Shown here piece by piece: positions 20,352 through 37,400 of a stretch of DNA of 40,654 nt. Numbering within the stretch: position 1 is the stretch's first letter; the number at the start of each line of letters is the position of its first letter. The notes under the pieces are model-generated. The model had not been told where the DNA came from and ran no database searches. It saw only the letters and a list, made by a program, of their open reading frames with translations. Source of the stretch: Gammaproteobacteria bacterium (lineage in GTDB: Bacteria > Pseudomonadota > Gammaproteobacteria > JAJDYQ01); the NCBI GenBank assembly GCA_028289815.1, contig JAPYNQ010000055.1, positions 1 through 40,654 of the forward strand. Direction: 5' to 3'. The position numbers and the translations under genes were made by a program.

Positions 20352-20618
20352 TTACAGATAACCTTCTTCACAGCTTTCCTGGCATTTTGCCAAAAAGAGG
20401 TTCAGGAACTCTCTGGAACTGATAGAATCGTAACTGTCCTGAAGCCTAGTTCCGCGCTCCACTTGCCCGGTGCAGACAGCAGACAGTAACCCAATACCGG
20501 GCCATACCCGATACTCAATGACAACATTCCCGCATATGGGACACCGGTCGTGCCGCCTTATAAAATCCTGCTCGCCCACCCGGTTCGGACTCGACCGGTT
20601 CATCCGCCGCCGGAACAC
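20352..20618 (-). CDS. Small hypothetical protein with a CxxC motif, doubtful
   Basis: An 88-codon frame runs from a GTG at 20618. It contains RCPICGNVVIEY, a possible half zinc ribbon, and a hydrophobic stretch WPGIGLLSAVC. The frame is the same as that of the upstream gene (20655-21137) and stays open back to that gene's TAA, so it may be a separate downstream cistron or a former C-terminal extension. No ribosome site is obvious. It overlaps no other gene. Confidence 0.35.
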   Translation of the reverse strand: MFRRRMNRSSPNRVGEQDFIRRHDRCPICGNVVIEYRVWPGIGLLSAVCTGQVERGTRLQDSYDSISSREFLNLFLAKCQESCEEGYL

Positions 20619-20654: not shown

Positions 20655-21137
20655 TTAATTTTTTGGTGGTAGGCGATGTATGGGCATGGGCTGGAAGTCA
20701 ATTTGGGTTGATGGTGTGCCTGGTATGCTATTACCGACTTGCTGCTTGGTACGCTTACCCTTCTGAGGCTGTGCATTGCTGGCCGCCTCAATAATCTGCT
20801 GATGTAATTGCTCCGTGTAGGGCAGTCGATACGCCCTGGGAGTCTGATCACCCTCCTCTGTCAGATCTATTACCCACATGTGGATGACGCCCCGGGTATC
20901 TTTGCGTTTGTCGGGCTGTACAATGTGCTGAGATAACAGCTGAAATTCTTCCGGTAAAGGCTGATCTATGGGCCAGCCTTCAAGTTGCGGCAAGGTATGC
21001 CAGACAACGATATAAAATGCACTGCAAAGTAGTATTAAACCAGCTTTTGTGTACCAGTAATAAGGTGCCTGCAAACTGAGAAGCAGCAAGAGGGGAATGA
21101 GTATGACATAGGCTATGGTTAACGCCAGAACTGTCAC
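20655..21137 (-). CDS. Two-helix membrane protein of the ExbB/ExbD-like operon
   Basis: The 160-residue protein has two N-terminal transmembrane segments (about residues 3-24, AYVILIPLLLLLSL, and 29-48, AGLILLCSAFYIVVW), followed by a soluble domain with VIHMWVIDLTEEGDQ and a proline-rich, charged C-terminal tail. No family is recognised. It starts with GTG, overlapping the preceding stop as GTGA, so it is translationally coupled to the ExbD-like gene. It may be an accessory or scaffold subunit of the channel complex. Confidence 0.7.
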   Translation of the reverse strand: MTVLALTIAYVILIPLLLLLSLQAPYYWYTKAGLILLCSAFYIVVWHTLPQLEGWPIDQPLPEEFQLLSQHIVQPDKRKDTRGVIHMWVIDLTEEGDQTPRAYRLPYTEQLHQQIIEAASNAQPQKGKRTKQQVGNSIPGTPSTQIDFQPMPIHRLPPKN

Positions 21138-21739
21138 GATGGCTCCAGGGCGTATGGCGTCAGGCGTTTGGGCAGGCGATTGATATCCAGCAGCTCACCT
21201 TTGCCGTCCAATTTGAAGCGCACAAAGGTGTGTTCCATGTCTTGCCTGTCCATGATGATTTTATCGAAAAACACAGTTTCTAAGGTCGGATTCACCTTAT
21301 CTACTGTGAGCGAGACTTCTATCGGCTGCTGGCTTCTGGCCTCATAGAAATAGGCATTTACAATATATTCTCCACTGATAATTCCGCGAATTGTGACAAC
21401 TTCCTGGTTGACCGGATGGACTACTTGCTGACCAGCAACCATGATCGTATCGTTGATTTCACCTCGGTCATCACGGTCCAAATGTAACCAACCGGCATCT
21501 TTTTGCAGATAGGATACGACTTCCCCATGCGGGTCCTCCACCCAAATATCAATGTCGTCGGCTAAACCATGCGGCCAGGCTAGAGTTATAATGTACTCTG
21601 CTTTAAGGTTGGCCGAACCGAGCCTGGCAAGCGGATTAACAAACATGATGGTCACCATAAACAGCATGGTGAATCCCAAGAGCGCATTGAACAACAGGTC
21701 GGTAAAAGGATCGGTCAAGTAACCTCGCCTGCGATTCAT
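21134..21739 (-). CDS. ExbD/TolR-like one-helix protein with DUF2135-like domain
   Basis: The 201-residue protein begins with a short basic cytoplasmic tail (MNRRRGYL) and one transmembrane helix, DPFTDLLFNALLGFTMLFMV. This resembles the ExbD/TolR/MotB helix signature PxxDxxFxLLxFFMVT, so Asp14 is the likely proton-coupling residue. The extracytoplasmic part is not an ExbD periplasmic fold. It reads as beta-rich segments, DDIDIWVEDPHGEVVSY, LHLDRDDRGEIND and VTIRGIISGEYIVNAYF, resembling DUF2135/YfaP-like domains. It lies three bases after the ExbB-like gene and overlaps the next gene. It could couple ion flow to an envelope ligand; no named homologue is recognised. Confidence 0.7.
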   Translation of the reverse strand: MNRRRGYLTDPFTDLLFNALLGFTMLFMVTIMFVNPLARLGSANLKAEYIITLAWPHGLADDIDIWVEDPHGEVVSYLQKDAGWLHLDRDDRGEINDTIMVAGQQVVHPVNQEVVTIRGIISGEYIVNAYFYEARSQQPIEVSLTVDKVNPTLETVFFDKIIMDRQDMEHTFVRFKLDGKGELLDINRLPKRLTPYALEPS

Positions 21740-21742
21740 GGT

Positions 21743-22456
21743 CTATTTGCCTAAATAGATCTCAATGGTATCGCTGATAAGGCCTGTCAATCGCCTAGCT
21801 CCACGGTCCAGGAAATGATACTGCAAACCCAGCAACATTCCGGCAAGCAATCCGGAAAATGTGGTAAACAGAGCGATGCGCATACCGGCGCTCATATCAA
21901 CCAGCATGTTCTGAATAGTCGTAATATCCGCATTATCAATGACGGCAACGGAGCTGAGCATGATGATGAAGCCTATCACAGTACCCAACAGGCCCAGCTT
22001 AATCATGATATCGGCTATAAACCATCCGAAGTCATGGTTGGCAGAAATATCTTTTTCCATGTTCTCGAGCATCAGGCGGCTAGTGTCGGTGCGATTACCG
22101 CGCTGTCGGCGCATAAGCTGTTTTTGAATCTGTTCGTGCAACAGGCAGACAGGCATTGGTCGGCCTGCACTAAATACCCTGCCATTGTCTTTGATCTGCA
22201 TATCTCCCCCACTTTCATACAGCAGGATGGCTATGTGCTCCGCCCTGTTAATTTCTCTCGACAGAAAGGCGACACGAAAACCGGCAGTAATGGTAATGAC
22301 CGCAAATATGGCCACGATAACGGATGAGATATAGCTTTTATCATATGTCAGCAGTGCTGTAATCATGCCCAGGTCCCAAGCTAGATAGAAACCAAATAGT
22401 ACGACCAGGATGATGGTCAACCACTGCAGGAAGAGTCGGTGTGAGTGGCGCGACAT
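21743..22456 (-). CDS. MotA/TolQ/ExbB-family proton channel subunit
   Basis: The 237-residue protein has an N-terminal helix pair (about residues 9-31 and 40-65), a cytoplasmic segment of about 80 residues and a C-terminal helix pair. The third helix reads KLGLLGTVIGFIIML, the hallmark of the ExbB/TolQ/MotA family, and the fourth MRIALFTTFSGLLAGMLLG. In this family five copies form an ion channel around a dimer of an ExbD/TolR/MotB-type partner, and a suitable partner is encoded next. It is first in a three-gene minus-strand operon. It is neither MotA (no motor-torque charged loop recognised) nor part of a tol or ton locus. Confidence 0.85.
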   Translation of the reverse strand: MSRHSHRLFLQWLTIILVVLFGFYLAWDLGMITALLTYDKSYISSVIVAIFAVITITAGFRVAFLSREINRAEHIAILLYESGGDMQIKDNGRVFSAGRPMPVCLLHEQIQKQLMRRQRGNRTDTSRLMLENMEKDISANHDFGWFIADIMIKLGLLGTVIGFIIMLSSVAVIDNADITTIQNMLVDMSAGMRIALFTTFSGLLAGMLLGLQYHFLDRGARRLTGLISDTIEIYLGK

Positions 22457-22660: not shown

Positions 22661-23078
22661 GATTTATCAGTCGGCCTGTGTTTCGACAGGCGTGCTCATA
22701 CCATTATTTCAGCATTAGTCTCCATGAACCCCAGGTATTGCCTGAGTCCGCAATAAACCGGGCTTTGCCTTACTGATGGCTAATAGTGGAAATTATAATG
22801 ATCGTTATGCTGGCACCCGCGCCGGATACATACAATCAAGCGGGGAGTGTGTGATTTGGCTAAACCATATTAAGCGCACCGGCTGATCTGGCAGCTTCAG
22901 CACGGCGACATGTTTGTAGTCCGGTCCGTATAAGACGAACCAACAACACAGGAAAGAATTAATCATGCCGGCAGCAGATACAACAACAGCCCGCAAGGAA
23001 CGAAAAAACGAGAATCACGGCTTTCTTTTCTGGTCTATACTGATGGGCATAAAGCCAACATCTCAAACGGAACACACC
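22661..23078. other. Intergenic region, nothing recognised
   Basis: Between repeat copy B and the ankyrin gene no convincing gene, RNA or terminator is seen. The frame open from 22965 ahead of the ankyrin start adds 38 residues that lack gene-like features. Confidence 0.45.
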
Positions 23079-23789
23079 ATGACAAATAAAACCCCGACCT
23101 ATAACCGGATGTTCGGGATAGCACTGCTAACCACAGCCTTGGCATTGGTATTGGTGCAAGTACCCGGAAATGCACAGGAAGAAGTCATATGGACACCCCT
23201 GCACGAAGCAGCATATTATAGCACCCCAGACACATCAGGGCACTGGTGCAGGCCGGCGCAGATGCAAATGCACCAGATTCAATCGGACGGTTCCCCTTAG
23301 GCGTGGCAGCAGCAAATAACGGAAACCCGGAAGTTATCAAGGCACTGATTCAGGCCGGCGCGGATGTGAATGCAAGGGAAAAAGAAAACGAAATGACAGC
23401 CCTGCACAGAGCAGCAGCAATGAATAATCCTGAAGTTGTCCGGGCACTGATACAAGCCGGTGCGTCTGTGAACGCGCGGGAGGGGCCAAGGCTTACACCC
23501 TTGCACTGGGCAACATTATACAACACCGCCGAGGTTATCAAGGTGCTGGCACAGGCGGCTGGAACGGATGTGAACGCACAGGATATAAAAGGAAATACAC
23601 CCCTGCACTACGCAGTAGTCAGCCAGAACCCCCCTGTTATTATTGAAGCCCTGCTGAATGCCGGCGCAAACCCGAAACTAAAGAACGAAAAGGGAGAACT
23701 CCCTGCCGAATATGTATTCCGCCAAGGCCGCGGAATACATAAAAGACAGTGAAGCCCTCTCATGGATACAATACCTCTTACGGGATTAA
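23079..23789 (+). pseudogene. Exported ankyrin-repeat protein, two frame changes
   Basis: The ATG at 23079 opens a signal peptide (FGIALLTTALALVLVQV, then GNAQEE), followed by the ankyrin start TPLHEAAYY. Near 23233 the similarity moves to another frame, which continues with ALVQAGADANAPDS and at least four 33-residue ankyrin repeats (VIKALIQAGADVNAREK, TALHRAAAMNNPEVVRALIQ, TPLHWATLYNTAEVIKVLAQ, TPLHYAVVSQNPPVIIEALL). Near 23720 removal of one base opens a third frame, AKAAEYIKDSEALSW, that ends at 23787-23789 and looks like a normal helical C-terminus. The lesions are not in long homopolymers. The restored protein of about 236 residues would be a periplasmic ankyrin protein. Confidence 0.75.
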
Positions 23790-34453: not shown

Positions 34454-37400
34454 TTATCGCTTTTCATAAGATACCCTGCCAGCGGGGCTGATATGTACTT
34501 TACGGGCATTGAGCTGTTTGAGTGAATTGGGGGACTTGGTTAAAAATTTGAACGAATCTTCTTTATCTCTATCTCTGGCATCAACATTGGCTTCATGCAA
34601 GGGAGCAAGGGTTATTTGCCCATCGCTCAATTTTTGTACTCGCCGCAGAATACGCTTTTTATTCTCTTCTTCAATTTCAATACAGTCATTTTTCTGCAAG
34701 CGCATAACCAATCTGGCAGCAGGGTGTGGTCTGTTAGTTTCACTAGGCTTGAAGTTCGGTTGACTGGCATCAAAAGTAGAAATAGTCACACCATCCCACT
34801 TATCTGCTTTTTTATGTCCCTTCGGAAATGAATAGATTTCCATTGCCCAGTTACTGTTTCCATCATATGCCTTATAAGGCTTATCACTTTTATCTGCGAT
34901 TGGGATCACGGTTTTATTCTCTTCTACTACACGTAGCCGGCGTATTCCTTTTTCTTTTGCCAGTTCCTTGACAGCATCAAAACCTCCGCCCTTATAGGCA
35001 TGCAGGAATGCCTGCCGTAACCGCAAGTTTCGAATGGATTCCAGGCTTTTTCGGGTTGCTGAGTCTGTCTTGCCTTTTAAGTCCGCAACAAATTTGCGAG
35101 TAACAACTCGACATTTTTGTTTGGTTCCGTGGCGAATATCTTTTCCGTCTGATGCTGAAATAATGCCATAAGCGGTGTCATTATGAAGCTGTCCTTGTTT
35201 TCTATGCCTTGCCCTGTGCGAAACCACAATTTCATTGATCACCTTTCTGACATCAGCTCGAAAACCATGCCACGGATCGATAGGGCTTGCTCCATTAGTG
35301 CCTTTAGGAAATAAATGTTCAATCTCCAAATCCTCGGCACGGTTGGCGGCAGTAGCTACCTTCTGCAACATAGAGCGGGATGTCATGCCGATGACTATCG
35401 CATCTACCGCATGGTGACGATGATCATCCCGATTCTTCCTGGAACGGTCATTTTCATTGAGGACACTGTTCAGTTTCCAGTGCCCTCGCAGCAAGCTGGT
35501 CAGACGACCTGTCACCACATCAATTTTATCGATATGGCATATACACTCCAGATATTCACGTGCCAGACGGCCGATGTAACGTGTATCATTGAGATGGCGT
35601 TCAGAAAAATCACTGTGATCTCTGTTCCATCTCTCCATGGCATCTTCGCCAAATCGCCAGTGCTTGGCGGTGGGTAAATGCTTTACCCGCTCCTGGATAT
35701 CTGACCAGCTATAACCGTCCGGACTATCACCAAATGCCTCAAAAGGCGTTCGTTTGCCTTTGTCTCTATTGGCCTGCCGGGTGCAAATCACCTTATTCGC
35801 TGGACTGTTATCCAGTGACCGGCTAAACGGCAGCAGATGATCAATTTCAATGCTTTCATTAGATAAATCGGCCTTTCCAATCTTCTTCCCGGAGAAAGGA
35901 CAACAACGACCCACAGGATCGTCGTTCAGCTCCTCCCATAGCCGCAGACGTAACCGATTAATAGGATTACGACTCAGCCCAAGCTCCTCCAATGCCCCAT
36001 CCAGTTTCCGGTTCCTCTCCTGATTATCTTTTTGTTCGGCTTCAATTTCTCTCCTGCCTTTTGGCCCTACCGGCAAATCCCGTCCGAGCTCAATAGCGAC
36101 AGACTCAGGATGACCATAACGACCAATCAGCTCATTAACCACTTTTCGGATTTGATTGAGTGCAATATGTACCGTCGGATTACTGACTCCACCGTAGTAA
36201 AGCAGATCGTTTCCCTCTTCTTTCGGTTCTTTACTACCGGGGATAATATGAGAACCTGCCTCAAATGCCTTTCCATAGTAAGGCAAGCGATCAGCAGGAG
36301 TGTAACCTGCCTCATCAGCCTTTCTCCGGCGCATGGGATTGACAAAATATTCATTTTCTTCCGCAACCCGCTCTGCTGCCTCATTCTGTAAAGGCAGCTT
36401 CAACTCGCCTGTCTCCATATCTGCTATGCCGTCGCGCATTTTCTCCAGCATCAAGTGGGCCGCCTTTAAGGAGATATTTGCTGTCCTATCAGTCAGTGGC
36501 GCACGCATACATTTCTCGGCAACCGTTTCGGAAAGGTGGGAGAATTCATCCATTAGCTGCCGTTTCACAGCATCCAACTGCTGTTTCATATCAGTATAAT
36601 CCGATTTGTCCTCCAGAATAATCTCAATAAACTTATCCTGCCTCTCCAGTGACCACTTATGCCAATCCGGTCCGACATAGTCCTCATGCTGCATGATGTG
36701 AGACGTTAAATTGCTATCAAATCCCTTGCGTTTAGAAGACTCAAAATTGAATTTGAAATCACGCTCTCTGCCTTGAATCAATCCCTTGTCTCTCAGGATT
36801 CCTTTCATCTTGCTAAAGGTAACTTCCCGGGTAGATGATTCTTCCAGCAGGGCGACTATGGCATCTCTGGCATCAGGATGTTCCCGCAACTTGCCCCCTG
36901 TCCATTCCAGATTATTCACCTCCTGATAGATGCGATAACACTGAAAACCGGGCATGGCGCGAAAAGTTCTGTCTTCGTCCGGCATATACATGCAACGACC
37001 GACTTTCTGTGACTTCAATGGACGTTGTTTAAAGATAATATTGTAGATACGATCTTTGTTTTCATCGGTCATGGACGAATGGTATTTCGCCTGAGCAGAC
37101 CATATTTTACTAAATTCGTCCTCATACAGTTCCCGTGTGGGATATACGTCATATGGACTCTTCCTATGCCCTGGTAAAGGACGAGCACGTGTCGGCCTCC
37201 CCTCCTGCTGTCGTTGCCACAAGAAGCTGCCGTAGGTCAGCTTGGCCATGCTGCCCAGCCGGGCCAGGGCTTCTTTGCGATCTTCAGCTTCTTTCTGCCG
37301 GACAGCCTTTTTTCTTTTTTGGATAACTCCTTGTACTTCTCTTTTGGAAGGAGAGAACCAATCAAACCCATCTCTTCCAGAAGCATTCGCACTGATTTAG

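Follow-up and report, generated by a model that had tools for sequence, protein, structure and literature searches.

A conserved three-gene operon of Gammaproteobacteria and phages as a candidate family of ion-driven envelope motors

The known 5:2 ion-driven motors form a small set: Mot, Ton, Tol, the gliding motors, Zorya and, recently, TPH-vWA. Does the compact operon at positions 20655-22456 of the window (the whole 40,654-nucleotide stretch of gammaproteobacterial DNA that was analyzed) encode one of these, or a motor of another family? An earlier sequence-only reading had proposed an ExbB/ExbD-like operon of three same-strand open reading frames with a new outer domain. The three frames, here called A, B and C, are present on the minus strand, with coordinates that agree exactly. 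The features of the operon are as follows.

21743-22456, minus strand: A, a MotA/TolQ/ExbB-family channel subunit of 237 aa, with a PF01618 match
21968-21997, minus strand: the LGLLGTVIGF motif of A (residues 154-163), including the predicted channel-lining Thr159
21134-21739, minus strand: B, a one-helix partner of 201 aa with a putatively periplasmic beta-sandwich (AlphaFold2)
21638-21709, minus strand: the membrane helix of B (residues 11-34), with the invariant Asp14 at codon 21698-21700
21179-21610, minus strand: the outer beta domain of B (residues 44-187), with conserved D-x-D-x-W and LDRDDRG
20655-21137, minus strand: C, a two-helix protein of 160 aa with a soluble domain and a GTG start

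The tight overlap that had been claimed for all three genes holds for B and C, which share 4 bp; B begins 3 bp past the end of A. An 88-aa open reading frame at 20352-20618 was rejected as a fourth gene, since it does not adjoin C in congeners. Divergent from the operon, on the plus strand at 22965-23752, lie two overlapping frames, 22965-23300 with a signal-like segment and 23246-23752 with ankyrin repeats, which are perhaps one frameshifted gene. The window also contains a Cas9-like protein (34454-37249, minus strand) with HNH_4, RuvC_III and Cas9 alpha-lobe matches.

The identity of A as a channel subunit carrying LGLLGTVIGF is borne out by its match to PF01618 (MotA_ExbB; E 3e-10), which at 40.3 bits is above the curated cut-off of 22.9. 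Four membrane helices are predicted in A, the second and third being separated by a cytoplasmic stretch, and the few matches of A to PDB sequences are weak and to MotA (E 0.07). B and C matched no Pfam or NCBIfam family at E values up to 5, and a PDB sequence search with B gave no significant match.

The single-chain AlphaFold2 model of B (mean pLDDT 86) has one membrane helix, with Asp14 near its start, followed by an all-beta sandwich, as expected for the one-helix, Asp-bearing partner that had been proposed. The corresponding model of C (mean pLDDT 87) has the two helices foreseen for the third protein (residues 2-23 and 28-52), followed by a mixed alpha/beta domain. When the folds of B and C were compared with the PDB, nothing scored below E 1e-3; the best match of B was the calcium-bound beta protein 2lge, and it was weak (E 6e-3). 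Against viral predicted structures, B gave five matches below E 1e-3, among which the sole informative name was a BACON-domain protein. The sequence-only reading had likened the outer domain to DUF2135/YfaP-like beta domains and had denied it a peptidoglycan-binding or TonB-related fold. The second statement agrees with the beta-sandwich model and with the lack of an OmpA match. Of the first, the beta domain stands and the specific likeness is sub-threshold: DUF2135 (PF09906) is the commonest Pfam match of B homologues, but it is found in 8 of 75, with a best E of 0.012 that falls short of any accepted threshold, and is not found in the B of the window. B, moreover, would be a membrane-anchored motor subunit, unlike DUF2135 domains.

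The orientation of C was read from its charges. In 69 sequences, the loop between the two helices holds 141 positive versus 19 negative residues, and the stretch past the second helix holds 30 positive versus 80 negative residues. By the positive-inside rule, the loop is therefore cytoplasmic and the soluble domain periplasmic. The charge pattern of B is indecisive; for its outer domain, a periplasmic location is assumed by likeness to ExbD, TolR and MotB.

Scanning GTDB contigs yielded 247 relatives, mostly in metagenome-assembled Gammaproteobacteria, with some labelled Alphaproteobacteria. The best 80 of the 247 were fetched for their loci, giving 79 cellular loci with at least 2.5 kb on either side. 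In all 79, A lies upstream of B, and in 74 of them C lies downstream. Across 84 cellular loci, A or C is absent only at contig ends, so that the survey of B homologues found no copy lacking the channel subunit in any other setting. In a class-wide profile search, B was found in 39 of 370 genomes and in 29 of 272 genera, about 10% of the gammaproteobacterial genera sampled; among 56 relatives searched, six were carriers. The cultured Methylohalomonas lacus (L090) is one of the family's hosts. The helix Asp, as in VFRD, is retained in divergent copies of B (profile E between about 1e-16 and 1e-27), and A or C adjoins these copies wherever sequence is available. Since the family is conserved over hundreds of genomes and contigs, a chance origin of the triplet is excluded.

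Some genomes have two A-B-C copies (L137 and L150 in G108; L138 in G129; L139 in G363; L140 in G213), and their partner sets differ, with, for example, YkuD-DUF302-VWA/FHA genes beside one copy and a DUF3108-like gene near the other. Three loci (L141, L144 and L146) have two C genes in tandem after B.

The residues expected of an ion path are conserved with few exceptions. Asp14 of B is found in 84/84 cellular loci, a count biased by one scan pattern that itself contained the Asp, and in 80/80 viral loci, for which the search patterns lay outside the helix (the aligned viral set comprised 64 distinct sequences). The Thr of LGLLGT in A is present in 82/82 cellular and 77/77 viral loci, and the second Thr of the TT pair in TM4 is invariant in the viral set; in two Innesvirus phages, Ala replaces the TM3 Thr at the LGLLGT site. 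Invariance of Asp14 had been singled out as a point to check, and no homologue without the Asp was found among the cellular, viral, divergent cellular or phage copies. This pattern of residues in A and B is that of MotAB, ExbBD and TolQR, which makes an ion-driven motor the natural reading, and we consider that reading well supported by sequence conservation.

We therefore weighed which motor this could be. TolQR and ExbBD have been described as generic ion transporters (PMC12505986). The operon resembles them in that a one-helix partner with an Asp in the membrane comes after a PF01618 channel subunit, and in its threonine-lined putative ion path. It differs from them in that A has four predicted helices, as read from the sequence, instead of three, in that B lacks an ExbD/TolR profile or fold, and in that the two-helix C is obligatory. 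One could still regard B as a TolR or ExbD with a swapped outer domain and C as a substitute for TolA or TonB serving the outer membrane, given that A is in the same superfamily and that B and C occupy the places of TolR/ExbD and of the transducer. We consider such a divergent Tol/Ton system very improbable. The genome already has ybgC-tolQRA (L007) and an ExbBD pair (L008), which lie, like a third PF01618 operon (L170), on contigs other than that of the window. B has no Pfam match to an ExbD/TolR profile even at E 5, and C, with its two helices, matches nothing known. TonB, TolA, TolB and Pal are not linked to A-B-C in the neighborhoods surveyed, and no TonB-dependent receptor lies beside the operon in the loci read.

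In its four-helix layout and its weak PDB sequence matches to MotA, A resembles the MotAB/PomAB stators. Unlike these, B has no OmpA-like peptidoglycan-binding domain (its model is a beta-sandwich, and Pfam and PDB fold searches gave no OmpA match), the context is not flagellar, and there is an extra subunit, C. As had been claimed, the window open reading frames that were read or scanned near the operon include none for TonB, TolA, a flagellar protein or Zorya C/D.

TPH-vWA pairs were described in 2025 (PMC12204202). Like them, the operon combines a TolQ-like gene with a non-ExbD partner carrying a helix Asp, and a VWA protein is linked to part of the family. In the A-B-C family, however, the VWA domain is on a separate FHA protein, and the Asp-bearing B is a predicted beta-sandwich with no vWA domain (no Pfam VWA match; all-beta model). 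The third PF01618 operon of the window genome (L170:188-2984, contig C10 of G000) is itself TPH-vWA-like (PMC12204202), with the PF01618 gene followed by two genes that have a helix Asp (LSFLDVMSCG and LSFLDIISCG).

The defining features of TolQR/ExbBD, MotAB, TPH-vWA and, as set out below, Zorya are missing, and the Asp and the gene linkage are conserved, in support of the proposal that the ExbB/ExbD-like operon with its new outer domain had gone unrecognized. Literature searches of open-access papers found no description of the A-B-C triplet. We judge it somewhat probable that A-B-C represents an undescribed family of 5:2-type ion-driven envelope motors which, in cells, most likely acts on the wall or envelope. 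In such a motor, five A subunits would form an ion channel surrounding a B dimer, ions passing Asp14 of B and the A threonines would rotate or shift the B helices, and the B beta-sandwich and the soluble C domain would act in the periplasm.

What would the motor act on? The neighboring genes suggest an answer for part of the family. In what we call the type I operon, genes for a YkuD L,D-transpeptidase and a DUF302 protein precede A, B and C, and a gene for a VWA-TM-FHA protein follows. Pfam matches and alignment show the latter to have a signal-like N-terminus, a VWA domain, a membrane helix and an FHA domain. Among the 79 flanked cellular loci, YkuD is upstream in 24, DUF302 is present in 19 and VWA-FHA is downstream in 15. 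In the type II operon (9/79), A, B and C are followed by a DUF3108-like lipoprotein. None of these partners is adjacent in 46/79 loci, including that of the window, so that the load there may differ or be encoded elsewhere. DUF255 proteins and other common neighbors were rejected as partners, because their position and strand vary by clade, which indicates clade synteny.

The association extends to whole genomes. The VWA-TM-FHA profile was found in 18 of 39 genomes with B versus 11 of 331 without B (Fisher odds ratio 25, p 6.5e-13, with genomes counted as independent despite their relatedness). In the window genome, the VWA-TM-FHA gene is on a separate contig, C28 (L169, 5211-6686), and it is likewise on another contig in one congener, so that the set is split in this genus, with both parts kept. 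The putative load of the motor, called unknown in the sequence-only reading, can be confined to a set of periplasmic or cell-wall partners.

Two further observations concern the partners. In three genomes without a detected B, YkuD is followed directly by VWA-TM-FHA (L172:8048-10208, L175:7183-9524 and L177:644-2997). YkuD and VWA-FHA possibly form a separate cell-wall module, and we read the arrangement as one in which the motor was added to, or lost from, that module, as an association and not a proof. In two congeners, a fusion of a PP2C phosphatase, a membrane helix and a SUMF1-like domain (domains assigned by eye) is convergent to the operon (L011:8400-10271). It was rejected as a partner, as the window genome has this gene on a different contig (C86 of G000; L095).

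For the cellular motor, we hypothesize that the load and its control would lie with the L,D-transpeptidase, the DUF302 protein and the VWA-TM-FHA protein, with VWA in the periplasm and FHA in the cytoplasm, and in other lineages with the lipoprotein. The FHA domain could couple the motor to Ser/Thr phosphorylation. The same protein, joining a cytoplasmic FHA to a periplasmic VWA domain, could also suit a gated ion channel, in which A and B would sense the state of the envelope and signal inward via the FHA protein and do no mechanical work; a channel accounts for the conserved residues of the ion path as well as a motor does. We hold this to be improbable, since to our knowledge the characterized members of the MotA/TolQ/ExbB superfamily are motors, and since the phage copies and most cellular loci have no adjacent FHA protein.

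The family is also carried by phages. When IMG/VR was scanned with the cellular B alignment, two contigs were found; a phage B alignment found 149 relatives, on contigs of up to 527 kb. In the 80 of these 149 that were examined, C always comes after B, and B is preceded by A in 78, with the two exceptions at contig starts; several of the loci have terminase and head maturation protease genes as neighbors. In INPHARED, 27 records match B, all of them Rhizobium or Sinorhizobium phages, several of which duplicate one phage, and the matching proteins are annotated as hypothetical proteins or as p040. We read the regions in nine phages: the Pootjesviridae RL2RES, N34 and P10VF; N3_13; I1_18; and four of the 16-3 type (16-3, X2_25, TM3_3_14B and NV1.1.1). 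Each of the nine has A, B and C, which in some are separated by small genes or homing endonucleases. A of phage N34 scores 23.0 bits against PF01618 (cut-off 22.9). The A of phage 16-3, taken alone, gives a weak match (E 0.04). Among the PHROGs v4 families, none corresponds to the phage A, B or C tested, and B has a weak match to one unknown family.

A tree of B has two subfamilies that split with full support, with phages in both. More than one transfer is likely on this tree, within the limit set by its long branches. The cell-wall partner genes are absent from the phage copies. In Rhizobium phage RHph_I1_18, a VWA-domain protein is encoded about 1.8 kb downstream of the triplet (L157:7721-9154).

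The phage copies bring the comparison with Zorya to the fore. Like ZorAB(CD), the family links a motor with phage biology, and A weakly matches ZorA (25 bits in PADLOC, 20 bits in NCBIfam). The NCBIfam score, on the other hand, is far under the ZorA cut-off (20 versus 100 bits), no PADLOC model matches B, ZorC and ZorD are absent from the window neighbors read, and the triplet is found on phages themselves.

A-B-C could nevertheless be a Zorya-like device for phage exclusion or warfare, a motor that senses or perturbs the envelope during infection, which phages would use against competitors or host responses, the cellular copies being domesticated or defensive. Its presence in many viral contigs, with B in 27 phage records, is consistent with such a device, and so are the non-generic matches of A, which are weak and point to ZorA models. 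So is the position of the triplet in phage genomes. The temperate phages of the 16-3 type have a DegP/HtrA-like protease ahead of A, and that of TM3_3_14B starts beside attL. In one IMG/VR contig (L151:7197-13200), RIIA, A, B, C, a trypsin-like protease and RIIB follow one another on one strand; we take RIIA and RIIB to be lysis-inhibitor genes. The cellular copies, however, lie in conserved housekeeping synteny and beside cell-wall genes with no recognized defense genes alongside, and neither ZorC nor ZorD is adjacent in the loci examined. Together with the lack of a PADLOC match for B, this leaves us regarding the exclusion device as rather unlikely.

On the envelope-motor reading, which we prefer, the A-B-C core that phages have would presumably act on the envelope of the infected host. 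We see an even chance that phages encode their own A-B-C ion-driven motor, which would work on the infected cell's wall or outer membrane in lysis control, superinfection exclusion or envelope maintenance. We know of no phage-encoded 5:2 motor described before.

A further 5:2 family with its own outer domain and a third subunit would broaden the known uses of ion-driven motors, and its occurrence in phages, besides about 10% of gammaproteobacterial genera, would add phages to the users of 5:2 motors. The finding points to the hypothetical genes p038, p040 and p042 of the tractable temperate phage 16-3, and it makes phage-powered work on the envelope during infection directly testable.
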